NCBI GenBank assembly: GCA_019358975.1
Contig: JAHHIL010000008.1
Location: 62,001 to 126,000 of the forward strand
Source: Trichocoleus desertorum ATA4-8-CV12
Lineage (GTDB): Bacteria > Cyanobacteriota > Cyanobacteriia > FACHB-46
Direction of reading: 5' to 3'
Length of the DNA stretch: 64,000 nt
In this document: piece after piece, positions 2,131 through 60,534 of the stretch
Layout of the letters: each line of letters starts with the position of its first letter
Position numbering within the stretch: the first letter of the stretch is position 1
The notes under the pieces: generated by a model
The model's database searches: none
What the model saw: only the letters and a program-made list of their open reading frames with translations
What the model was told of the DNA's origin: nothing
Program-made: the position numbers and the translations under genes

Positions 2131-3711
2131 ATGGCCTGGTCTAAACAGTTGTCTAAGCGACCTCAGCTTTGGTTTGTGCTTGGCACCGTTGGGATATTCT
2201 TACTAGCGATCGCGTTGCGGTTTTGGGGCCTGAGTCGCTTCAATACCCTCGTTTTTGATGAAGTTTACTTCGCCACATTTGCCAACAACTACCTGATCCA
2301 GCGGCCTTTTTTTGATGGACACCCACCTCTAGGCAAATACCTGATTGCCATTGGCATTTGGCTCGCTAATCAAACCCCGTGGGGCGCAGACGCAGTCAAA
2401 AACTCCCTCACAGGTTCGCTGCTGTCCCCCTTCAGCTATCGCTGGCTCAATGCTCTAGTTGGGTCATTCATCCCGTTGATTGTGATGGGCATAGCCTACC
2501 AGCTCACCCGTCGCCGTAGCTACGCCTTGATCGCAGGTTTACTCTCCACCTTAGATGGCCTGTTTCTGGTCGAATCACGCTACGCCTTGGTGAACGTGTA
2601 CCTGATCAGCTTTGGTTTGTTGGGGCAATGGTTTTTCTTGCGATCGCTAGAGCGACGAGGCGTAAAACGCTGGTGGTGGCTGATTCTAGCAGGGATTAGC
2701 TTTGGAGCTTCTGCTGCCATCAAGTGGAATGGCTTGTGGTTTTTGTTTGGCGCTTATTTGTTGTGGTTCACAGCCTGGGGGATGCGCCTAATCGCTAAAT
2801 TCTGGGGAGGCACACCCGACCCCATCCTTACACCTAGCGGTAAACAATTCATTTCTCCCCTCCGCAAGCTAACTCAACTCAACCTCTTTACCGCCATTAC
2901 AGCATTGGGAATTGTCCCAGTCCTGACCTACAGTTTGAGTTGGATTCCTCACCTGCGACTCAATCCCACTCCCAACTTCTGGGACGTGCAAAAACGAATT
3001 TTGTCATACCACGAGCGAGTTGGCGACGGTCCCAAAATCCACCCCTACTGCTCCGACTGGTACACCTGGCTTTTCATGCAGCGCCCCATCCTGTATTTCT
3101 ACGAAACTGCCCAAACCACCAGCGACATCGTACCTGCCAAGCCTTCCCTCCCGCAGTCAGCCGTCAAACTGGTGTACGACATTCACGCAATGGGCAACCC
3201 AGCCCTCTGGTGGCTATCCACCGCCGGAATTCTCTTAGTGATGTGGATGCTAGGAAAGCGTTTCTACAATTGGGTGCAGCAAACCGACGCTGCCCACGCG
3301 ATCGCCGCAATCCCAAACCAAGCCCCTACCCAAGCGATCGCAGCCCCTACCCTCCCTCAGCCAGCTACTGGATCGTTTACTGGATCATTTACTGGATCAA
3401 TCACTAGCTCAATAGACCTGTGGATTGGCGTTTACCTCGTCGCCAATTATGGAGCCAACTTAATCCCTTGGATGCGAGTCAGCCGCTGCACCTTCCTATA
3501 CCACTACATGGGTGCTTCCGTCTTCTCACTACTCGCGATCGCCTGGCTGATCGATCGTTGGTTGCATAGCCGCCAATACTGGTTCCGAATCGCAGGGGTC
3601 ACAGCCATCTTTCTGATCATCATGGCCTTCATCTTCTGGCTACCCTTCTACCTCGGCCTGCCCCTATCCCCCACAGAGTGGCAACTGCGGCGTTGGTTGC
3701 CGACTTGGTAA
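2131..3711 (+). CDS. PMT-family (GT39) dolichyl/polyprenyl-phosphate mannosyltransferase-like protein
   Basis: This 526-residue polytopic protein begins with a membrane helix (about 13-35), then FDEVYFATFANNYL and FFDGHPPLGKYLIA. These are the family signatures: catalytic Asp-Glu at residues 43-44 in the first periplasmic loop, and the HPPLGK loop. At least eight more hydrophobic segments follow, and the C-terminal part resembles the PMT four-helix C-terminal domain. GT39 enzymes move a sugar from a lipid-phosphate carrier to Ser/Thr of exported proteins, which is the inferred role here. A Gln/Pro/Ala-rich cytoplasmic or periplasmic linker at about 385-430 contains a threefold TGSF/TGSI repeat from a 12-bp DNA duplication. 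No partner gene adjoins. Confidence 0.85.
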   Translation: MAWSKQLSKRPQLWFVLGTVGIFLLAIALRFWGLSRFNTLVFDEVYFATFANNYLIQRPFFDGHPPLGKYLIAIGIWLANQTPWGADAVKNSLTGSLLSPFSYRWLNALVGSFIPLIVMGIAYQLTRRRSYALIAGLLSTLDGLFLVESRYALVNVYLISFGLLGQWFFLRSLERRGVKRWWWLILAGISFGASAAIKWNGLWFLFGAYLLWFTAWGMRLIAKFWGGTPDPILTPSGKQFISPLRKLTQLNLFTAITALGIVPVLTYSLSWIPHLRLNPTPNFWDVQKRILSYHERVGDGPKIHPYCSDWYTWLFMQRPILYFYETAQTTSDIVPAKPSLPQSAVKLVYDIHAMGNPALWWLSTAGILLVMWMLGKRFYNWVQQTDAAHAIAAIPNQAPTQAIAAPTLPQPATGSFTGSFTGSITSSIDLWIGVYLVANYGANLIPWMRVSRCTFLYHYMGASVFSLLAIAWLIDRWLHSRQYWFRIAGVTAIFLIIMAFIFWLPFYLGLPLSPTEWQLRRWLPTW

Positions 3712-3740
3712 AGGATGAAGGAGGAGGGATGAAGGATGAA
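3711..3740 (+). repeat. GA-rich interspersed repeat, also found inverted inside rsmG
   Basis: This 30-bp stretch begins AAGGATGAAGGAGGAGGGAT, directly at the stop codon of the mannosyltransferase gene. Its reverse complement recurs at 59988-60017 with 29 of 30 bases identical. It is followed at 3741-3790 by further GAG/TAGGAGT-type low-complexity sequence, as is common in intergenic DNA of filamentous cyanobacteria. Confidence 0.75.
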
Positions 3741-3904
3741 AAAGTGAGGGGCAAGAAGTGAGGAGTGAGGAGCTAGGAGTCAGAAATTCAAGCCAGTAGC
3801 CAACCCCTGAGAGCCAATATTTGACCCCGTTCAAGACTCGAAACACTCACAGCTAGATTCGTTTGGAGGGGGTCTGGGGGACGCAACCGTCCCTCAGCGG
3901 GGGT

Positions 3905-9979: not shown

Positions 9980-10411
9980 GGGGGCTGAGTTTACAGAAAT
10001 CGCCGTAAAGCCCACATGCTGTCTTCGGTGGGATATAAGGCGGTGAGCTTTTAGCGAACGAATGAACTATGTATTCTGATAAAATTCAGGTAAGTTCTTC
10101 AACATACTTGGGTTTCGGCGGGTTCTGAACAGAAGTTGTTCGGGTAAAGACTCAAACGTACCGTAGGAATGTAGGCTTGGCAGTTTAATTGGAAAACTTG
10201 AATCGCTAGGGGTAAAATCCAGGATAAGCCTTCGGCACGCTTCGCTACGCATTGTCTGTCAGTCCTAAAGAGAGAAAACCAATTCTGGTTGTTTGAGAGC
10301 AGTCCAACTAGGCAGGGCGTTGTCTAGAGCGAGAGAGCAAGTCAGACGGGGTTCGCCTCGCATTGTTCGCCAGTATCGCTGAATCCCACGTGCTTTAGCC
10401 GTGGGAGTGCG
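9980..10411. other. Gene-free gap in the chemosensory cluster, with an IS200/IS605-like end hairpin
   Basis: No credible reading frame is seen. The last part (10345-10411) ends with GAATCCCACGTGCTTTAGCC and GTGGGAGTGCGTCAA. CCCACG (10385-10390) pairs with CGTGGG (10400-10405) around TGCTTTAGC. This closely resembles right ends of cyanobacterial IS200/IS605 (tnpB-type) elements, where the same hairpin closes the element and its omega-RNA. No transposase remains. A TTCGGCACGCTTCGCTACGC repeat lies at 10232-10251. The hairpin abuts the mcp stop codon at 10412. Confidence 0.45.
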
Positions 10412-44894: not shown

Positions 44895-44948
44895 CGCCAT
44901 AACGCCATACGCCATAACGCCATACGCCATAACGCCATACGCCATAAC
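44895..44948 (+). repeat. 15-bp minisatellite, about 3.6 copies
   Basis: The unit CGCCATAACGCCATA is repeated in tandem from 44895 with no spacers, ending in a partial copy. It sits between the HxlR gene and the prk terminator. Direct contact of copies without spacers excludes a CRISPR array. Confidence 0.85.
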
Positions 44949-44955
44949 ACCACAG

Positions 44956-49491: not shown

Positions 49492-50127
49492 TTAAGGGGT
49501 GACTGGATCTGAGCTAGGCTCAGCCTCAGGAGCCGTTGAACCATCTGGGGCCGTGCCGGGGTCAGCCTCAGGAGTCATAGAACCATCTGGAGCCATGCCG
49601 GGGTCAGCCTCAGGAGTCATAGAACCATCTGGAGCCATGCCGGGGTCAGCCTCAGGAGTCATAGAACCATCTGGGGTCATGCTGGGGTCAGCCTCAGGAG
49701 TCATAGAACCATCTGGGGTCATGCCGGGGTCAGTCATAGTGCCAGAATCATCTGGGCTAGCAGGATCTACTTCAGGTACAGTACCGCTATCAGGGCTACC
49801 TGGAGAACTGGGTGGACCCGCAGGCCGAGTTGTATCTGTTTCGGTTGTGTCTGTGGTGGTATCAGCAGGCTGAGTCGTATCGTCAAGCTCTCCAGGGCTA
49901 GTTGGAGCAGCAGTTGGACTCGTAGGGCTACCGCCAGGGCAGCGAGAGTTTAGGGGGAAGATTTCACACAGAATCCTAAAGCCTTCTGGGGAAAGCTTGA
50001 TTTCTGCAGCAGAGGGGGCAGTGGTGCCACTTGATTGGGCAACAGCAGCACCACCCGTGAGAGTCAGGGCTAGGGCTGTCCCAAAGAGGGTAACGTATTT
50101 AGCCTTCACAAGACTTAACCTCAACAA
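49492..50127 (-). CDS. Secreted low-complexity protein with 14-residue tandem repeats
   Basis: The 211-residue protein has a signal peptide (LFGTALALTLTGGAAVAQSS), then a small domain with FRILCEIFPLNSRCPGG, whose two Cys are probably disulfide-bonded. The rest is disordered and very acidic (Asp/Glu/Pro/Thr/Ser). Residues 139-208 consist of five copies of a 14-residue unit, DGSMTPEADPGMAP, of which copies 2 and 3 are identical and the rest slightly changed. The C-terminal repeats look like a recent 42-bp tandem expansion and may act as an extended spacer or bind cations. The function is unknown. The gene is the only one on this strand until gatC. Confidence 0.68.
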   Translation of the reverse strand: MLRLSLVKAKYVTLFGTALALTLTGGAAVAQSSGTTAPSAAEIKLSPEGFRILCEIFPLNSRCPGGSPTSPTAAPTSPGELDDTTQPADTTTDTTETDTTRPAGPPSSPGSPDSGTVPEVDPASPDDSGTMTDPGMTPDGSMTPEADPSMTPDGSMTPEADPGMAPDGSMTPEADPGMAPDGSMTPEADPGTAPDGSTAPEAEPSSDPVTP

Positions 50128-59694: not shown

Positions 59695-60534
59695 ATGTTG
59701 GGTCTTGAATTGGATCTTGAAACCGTGAATTTGCCGGAAATGGCCGCTGTTTGGCAAGAAACTCTCCATTGGCAGCCCACCTCTCAGCAGCAGCAGCAGT
59801 TACAACAGCTTTACAACCTCATCCTAGACGGCAACCGCCAGTTAAACCTCACCCGCATTACCGAGCCAACCGAGTTTTGGGAAAAGCACTTATGGGACTC
59901 GTTACGCGGCCTAGCACCCTTTTTGAAGGATGAAAACGGAAGGATGTTCGCGCAGCATTCCGAAGGAAAGGATGAAGAAGAGCCAAATTCATCCCTCATC
60001 CCTCCTCCTTCATCCTTCCGTGCTTCCTCCTTTCGTGTAATTGACATCGGCACTGGCGGCGGGTTTCCTGGTATTCCAGCGGCGATCGCTCGTCCCGATT
60101 GGCAAGTGACCCTGTTGGATTCAACTCAGAAGAAAGTTACTTTTCTGCAAACGCTGGCAACGACGTTGGGGCTGGGAAATATTACAACTTTAGTAGACCG
60201 AGCAGAACAGGTAGGGCAGTTGCCTGAGCACCGGGAAGCTTATGATTTGGCGCTGATTCGGGCGGTGGGGTCAGTTTCTGTTTGTGCTGAGTACGCCTTG
60301 CCCTTGTTGAAATTAGAAGGACAAGCGGTGCTCTATCGCGGTCAGTGGACTGTTGAGGAAACTGAAGCATTGCGCCCAGCGGTGGCTCAGTTAGGGGGAG
60401 CGATCGCGGCGATCGAGGAATGCAACACCCCGGTCAGCCATAGCATGCGGCACTGCCTCTACTTACGCAAAGTGGCTCAAACGCCTAGTGAATTTCCAAG
60501 GGCAATTGGGGTGCCAGCGAAGCAGCCACTGTAG
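59695..60534 (+). CDS. rsmG: 16S rRNA (guanine527-N7)-methyltransferase, with a repeat-derived insertion
   Basis: The 279-residue enzyme (usually about 210-250) shows LNLTRITEPTEFWEKHLWDS, VIDIGTGGGFPGIPAAIARP (SAM motif), VTLLDSTQKKVTFLQTLATT and DLALIRAVGSV, all typical of RsmG. It methylates G527 of 16S rRNA. Between LAPFLKD (about 79) and FRVIDIG (about 114) there is an insertion of about 35 residues, GRMFAQHSEGKDEEEPNSSL then IPPPSSFRASSFR. This is encoded by a GA/CT-rich DNA repeat with inverted ends, and a 30-bp part recurs at 3711-3740. It keeps the frame and lies before the SAM motif, so activity is probably kept. Confidence 0.92.
   Translation: MLGLELDLETVNLPEMAAVWQETLHWQPTSQQQQQLQQLYNLILDGNRQLNLTRITEPTEFWEKHLWDSLRGLAPFLKDENGRMFAQHSEGKDEEEPNSSLIPPPSSFRASSFRVIDIGTGGGFPGIPAAIARPDWQVTLLDSTQKKVTFLQTLATTLGLGNITTLVDRAEQVGQLPEHREAYDLALIRAVGSVSVCAEYALPLLKLEGQAVLYRGQWTVEETEALRPAVAQLGGAIAAIEECNTPVSHSMRHCLYLRKVAQTPSEFPRAIGVPAKQPL
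59927..60036 (+). repeat. Inverted-end repeat element inserted in frame in rsmG
   Basis: CGGAAGGATG (59937-59946) and its reverse complement CATCCTTCCG (60011-60020) mark inverted ends of a low-complexity segment. Its right part (59988-60017) is the 30-bp repeat at 3711-3740 in the opposite orientation, with one mismatch. It carries no stop codon in the rsmG frame. Confidence 0.7.

Follow-up and report, generated by a model that had tools for sequence, protein, structure and literature searches.

Hairpin-forming heptanucleotide repeats (STRR) are known in filamentous cyanobacteria, where copies have been described in promoters and between the hup genes (PMC2670836; earlier STRR literature, Mazel 1990 and Vioque 1997). 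The repeats analyzed here share with STRR their 7-bp units, high-copy dispersal, hairpin formation, and patchy occurrence across strains. STRR are described as intergenic or in functional RNAs, which is their usual location and not a strict definition, whereas the copies here occur in frame in a dozen conserved genes (at least 13 proteins carry them). The small dispersed repeat (SDR) elements of Nostoc, reportedly described by Elhai et al. 2008, are said to be 21–27 nt long and often embedded in tandem heptamers. Our locus holds a similar 21-nt repeat nested in heptamers, itself dispersed (13 sites at ≤3 mismatches vs 0 in the control); the likeness is to that general description, and the copy here differs in lying in a coding region with the frame kept.

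For insertions into proteins, the closest known case is the Rickettsia palindromic elements (RPEs), palindromic repeats found in frame in many unrelated, mostly metabolic genes (PMC10969869). By description, as opposed to sequence, the repeats here are likewise palindromic elements in frame in multiple unrelated genes. RPEs measure about 100–150 bp, have conserved ends, and encode a conserved peptide, whereas the elements here, among the matches listed, run from 14 to about 190 bp with any number of heptamers and no constant ends, encode 11–68 residues, contain nested repeats, and turn over continually in length. MITEs and REP/REPIN elements, too, are high-copy inverted repeats that are short and non-autonomous, but we found no fixed terminal inverted repeats, target duplication, or Y1-transposase association here. 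STRR heptamers with nested SDRs are otherwise the closest known system. The combination of heptamer repeats in core protein genes, recurrent at one linker, was not found described in the papers searched, nor did we find a literature report of HPSSF peptides in cyanobacteria.

The repeat lies in rsmG, within a window (the whole stretch of DNA analyzed, 64,000 nt) from one cyanobacterial genome (G000). The gene product is an RsmG equivalog by profile search (TIGR00138, 158.7 bits vs a cut-off of 99.5, E 1e-46), also matches Pfam GidB, and in an AlphaFold model has the RsmG/GidB structures 1xdz and 3g8b as its best folds (1xdz TM 0.91 by target length). Codons 78–113 (59926–60033, 36 aa) stand between motif FWEKHLWDSLRG and SAM motif I, in the linker between the N-terminal helices and the SAM motif, and alignment places the insert at the same residues, 78–113. 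The FWEKH-to-DIG spacing is 56 residues in G000, while the shortest in other genera is 24–27.

Table 1. Coordinates of rsmG, its heptanucleotide repeat, and the intergenic copy, numbered from the first base of the window
Feature	Position	Strand	Remarks
rsmG (16S rRNA m7G527 methyltransferase)	59695-60534	+	intact ORF, 279 aa
Heptanucleotide-repeat hairpin, in frame (codons 78-113 plus edges)	59925-60035	+	7-nt periodicity z 4.3; RNA fold z -2.9
5' purine arm GAAGGATGAAAACGGAAGGATG	59925-59946	+	inverted repeat with 59997-60018
Nested second repeat TTCGCGCAGCATTCCGAAGGA, 21 nt	59947-59967	+	lacking in both congeners; related copies nested in heptamers of other genes
Purine heptamer AAGGATGAA, resuming after the nested repeat	59968-59976	+	
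3' pyrimidine arm, TTCATCC-type heptamers	59988-60034	+	59988-60017 is the 30-mer in reverse
SAM-binding motif I VIDIGTGGGFPG	60037-60072	+	directly after the linker
Intergenic copy AAGGATGAAGGAGGAGGGATGAAGGATGAA	3711-3740	+	starts at the upstream ORF's TAA stop

Degenerate heptanucleotide repeats make up the insert, a purine-rich GGATGAR arm being followed by a pyrimidine-rich TTCATCC arm. With the 21-nt repeat nested inside, the insert encodes the peptide KDEGGGMKDE...HPSSFILHPSS. An earlier note on this DNA had seen in it a mobile-looking repeat with inverted ends. These ends were confirmed and extend a little further than first claimed: ACGGAAGGATG (59936–59946) and CATCCTTCCGT (60011–60021) are 11 nt long and 100% complementary, and sit within a 22-nt pair that is 82% complementary. 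The reported match to an intergenic repeat in opposite orientation also held, with one mismatch (29/30) between 3711–3740 (+) and 59988–60017 (−) and no such match in 100 shuffles. The insert contains no stop codon and lies upstream of SAM motif I, as first described. What did not stand was the implied single mobile element: the dispersed inverted repeat proved to be compounded of heptamers, with another small repeat lodged among them.

Across the genome the family unit was a heptamer (GGATGAA, GGATGAG, or GGAGGAR; GGATGAR on one strand and YTCATCC on the other) and not one fixed element. The 13-mer GGATGAAGGATGA had 64 exact sites in the 6.06-Mb genome vs 0 for the reversed control. The earlier note's proposal that the extra RsmG residues derive from a dispersed inverted repeat, with copies also between genes, is supported. 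The 20-mer GGATGAAGGAGGAGGGATGA had 212 sites at ≤3 mismatches (3 in the control) and GGAKGAGGGATGA had 126 (0 in the control); heptamer copies were catalogued among the matches listed for these two words. With the 13-mer and 20-mer counts marking degenerate dispersed copies, 7-bp tandem units (z 4.3–5.4 in the RsmG linkers of three congeners), and hairpin formation, the family shows the traits of STRR. Copy size ran from two units to long arrays, including a simple tandem array of about 21 units (C27:45520–45672). Among the matches listed, heptamer clusters lay mostly outside long ORFs, and wherever opposite arrays adjoined, the purine-rich one came first (14/14). The complete form is therefore a hairpin with fixed polarity. 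The four best copies of TTCGCGCAGCATTCCGAAGGA (≤2 mismatches) were all nested in heptamer elements within genes, namely those for an HPP protein, a U32 peptidase (twice), and RsmG. Exact heptamer-repeat sites were present in 73 of the 194 genomes of the class, with high copy numbers scattered among them (195 in G179, 79 in G170, 64 in G000, 62 in G083, and 45 in G033).

Further repeats occur in the window. A second purine-rich, GTGAGGAGTGAGGAG-like repeat (3744–3775) directly adjoins the intergenic copy, and the MetH linker of one congener (G002) is full of units like it. At 10229–10248 (−), GTAGCGAAGCGTGCCGAAGG is three mismatches from the nested repeat, and six further G000 sites hold the related word TTCGCGTAGCGTGCCGCAGG. 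A 42-bp tandem repeat of 5.1 copies (94% match) lies at 49520–49733, and a further array of 7/8-bp tandem units (CGCCATA/CGCCATAA, about 7 copies) at 44895–44952.

RsmG was one of at least 13 conserved G000 proteins with in-frame copies. The others, at least 12, included AnmK, MiaA, Mfd, a U32 peptidase, MetH, an SNF2 helicase, CobK, an NRPS adenylation domain, an AMP-binding enzyme, ThiL, an HPP-family protein, and a HemN-like radical-SAM protein. We aligned ten of them with relatives. MiaA had a 66-residue segment missing in both congeners; the G002 site reads AAAGG/CATCC and could be a deletion scar. The U32 peptidase had 68 residues vs 8 in relatives. CobK and Mfd had a short KDEGG core in the congeners and a longer, nested form in G000, and the SNF2 helicase insert was common to the genus. 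We rejected the MetH, AnmK, ThiL, NRPS, and AMP-binding copies as clean insertions, because relatives hold native variable linkers there, with other, often likewise repetitive, sequence. Judged from these alignments, the five cases are linker remodelling and not pairs of empty and full sites. A clean insertion caught in real time was seen at none of the compared sites. In-frame copies lay mostly in loops whose length varies among relatives, and the repeats therefore gather where changes of loop length are already tolerated.

Within the genus (three species: G000, G001, and G002), a heptamer hairpin occupied the same place in rsmG in all three, with differing lengths. The FWEKH-to-DIG spacing was 52 residues in G001 and 44 in G002, and the indels of 21, 9, and 15 nt among the congeners all kept the frame. 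Lag-7 identity was high throughout (z 4.3–5.4) and seven was the best lag. Nested inserts differed between two of the species: G000 had TTCGCGCAGCATTCCGAAGGA in its 5' arm, and G001 had in its 3' arm CCCTACGGAAGTGGCGAGGGCGTACATCC, a reversed copy of a related nested repeat that the NRPS and U32 genes also hold. With the repeat common to all three species, we infer an empty ancestor from other families, whose protein identity is at most 66%.

Elsewhere in cyanobacteria the RsmG linker was hypervariable, from 24 to over 100 residues, and usually not heptameric. The earlier note had reasoned that an insert shared by relatives at many distances would be ancestral; the three congeners have it and most of the more than 50 other cyanobacterial RsmG examined do not, a pattern that does not amount to such sharing. 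Two other lineages carried GGATGA-type heptamers at this linker. TCATCCC heptamers were present in the Leptolyngbyaceae MAGs RM1_406_9 and SM1_4_3 and missing in a relative nested among them (G065), and the RU_5_0 linker holds GGATGAAGGATGAA. By parsimony on a tree of the RsmG core, with the linker excluded, the GGATGA label needs four changes; well-supported branches force only two changes and deep nodes are poorly supported. Recurrent colonization of the linker by the GGATGA repeat is therefore likely, and one very old origin followed by many losses less so. A third genus (g54) had unrelated heptamers in the same place. In G141 these were AAGTCAG and CTCAAAA with a nested TTCGCGTAGCGT (z 8.0), and in its sister species G083 they were different again (z 7.2), so that two sister species hold different heptamer families in one linker (L287 and L281). 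This suggests that one heptamer type was quickly replaced by another. The word CTCAAAACTCAAAACT had 305 sites in G141; for this word the reversed-pattern control says nothing, as the array itself also contains the reversed word.

The earlier note had called the repeat domesticated, which our results do not bear out. Across the three congeners the RsmG core had a dN/dS of 0.05–0.07 and is under strong purifying selection. The linker value, about 0.6–1.0 from only 16–20 synonymous sites, points to near-neutral, drifting evolution. An AlphaFold model (28 sequences) had pLDDT mostly 85–97 in the core and <50 at residues 80–103 and 106–109, so the linker is predicted to be disordered. No gain of function is indicated, and the loop appears to be tolerated and not useful or selected.

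We therefore propose that the rsmG insert is, very probably, a copy of a dispersed, degenerate heptanucleotide family, a purine-first hairpin lying in frame in a hypervariable, solvent-exposed linker as tolerated padding. It would have entered rsmG ahead of the divergence of the three congeners and been remodelled since by loss and gain of heptamers, and the two small nested repeats would have entered separately, the 21-nt one in the 5' arm of G000 and its reversed relative in the G001 3' arm. Genes would retain only copies with a length that is a multiple of three and without TGA stops; the GGAGGAG variant unit drops these stops and the pyrimidine strand is stop-free, which makes this easy. 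The family recurs likewise in loops of many other core enzymes. As to how it spreads, we lean slightly towards copying and expansion at short purine-run/pyrimidine-run seeds, through slippage during replication and either template switching at hairpins or gene conversion. In the congeners, the sites often consist of a short purine run with a pyrimidine run after it, which would seed slippage or hairpin template switching. We rank spread by a transposase acting on fixed ends below this, as rather unlikely.

The strongest rival holds that a mobile element of MITE or RPE type, its ends defined and moved by a transposase in trans, jumped once into rsmG and was then domesticated. Inverted repeats with dispersed copies, the fixed purine-first polarity, in-frame copies across many unrelated genes, and composite copies with a common nested repeat would all fit such an element. 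Its ends and length would not be expected to vary as they do here, and simple tandem heptamer arrays such as that on C27 exist too. Comparison of full and empty MiaA sites showed no target-site duplication or fixed ends, with few sites resolved, and no heptamers lay within about 1.5 kb of 12 Y1_Tnp hits (the Y1-transposase family only). A TTCGCG.AGCG match near three Y1 genes was rejected as a nested repeat, being part of the end of that insertion sequence. We consider a single jump improbable. Still less probable is that the mRNA hairpin is the selected feature, acting in transcript stability or translational pausing between the two domains with the peptide as a by-product. Predicted RNA hairpins were stable in G000 (z −2.9) and in the compact hairpin of G002 (z −4.0), and STRR hairpins have been proposed to stabilize transcripts or couple translation (PMC2670836), but the G001 fold was below significance (z −1.8), the hairpin differs in each relative, and most families have none. 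Finally, the linker could be ordinary fast-evolving disordered coding sequence, purine/pyrimidine-rich by chance and expanded by slippage, with its likeness to the intergenic repeat due to convergence; linker length and content are hypervariable in all cyanobacteria and slippage alone can create heptamers, yet we rejected this reading as barely credible given the 29/30 match to a second locus (none in the shuffles) and the nested repeat shared with other genes, together with the two arms in inverted orientation and the same units in a dozen unrelated G000 genes.

In GTDB contigs, 67 stretches held exact copies of the 20-mer. They belong to Cyanobacteria, Chloroflexota, Planctomycetota, Verrucomicrobiota, Bacteroidota, and others, where about 0.5 matches would be expected in 257 Gb under uniform base composition. 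Further in-phase heptamers accompanied 45 of the 67 (mean 1.48 vs 0.057 in the other six phases). In-frame copies were found in clear equivalogs, namely ObgE (Verrucomicrobia), QueG (Brevefilum), MutS (Oscillochloris), and FolC (Leptolyngbyaceae). Many of these stretches are from MAGs, in which mis-binning is possible for single cases, and the copies may reflect transfer or convergence. In one Verrucomicrobia MAG (L244), ObgE has KDEGGGMKDE...LILHPSSF in frame inside the N-terminal Obg domain. In MutS of the Oscillochloris MAG LJ_bin-2023 (L215), the heptamer family forms five in-frame tandem 21-nt units (FIPPPSSFIPPPSSF...), and a second KDE/PPPS stretch lies towards the C-terminus. Tentatively, heptanucleotide hairpin repeats could be a general, phylum-spanning generator of protein loops, with the GGATGAR unit spreading between and within genomes of at least 10 phyla, copying without a dedicated transposase, and landing repeatedly in frame in core enzymes (RsmG on several independent occasions, ObgE, MutS, QueG, FolC, and MiaA); this is a possibility to which we give somewhat less than even weight.

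RPEs have so far been the standard example of repeats invading protein genes. Repeats of seven bases do likewise in free-living cyanobacteria and apparently also in Chloroflexota, Verrucomicrobiota, and others, and the phenomenon reaches beyond rsmG. With their full, partial, and empty sites, the three congeners open the mechanism to direct testing. Runs of KDEGGGMKDE or HPSSFILHPSS in alignments and annotations should be taken as marks of repeat DNA and not of conserved domains. Heptamer hairpin repeats are a recurrent, little-noticed source of protein loops, less often in other phyla, and offer a datable, recurrent origin for disordered loops in core enzymes.
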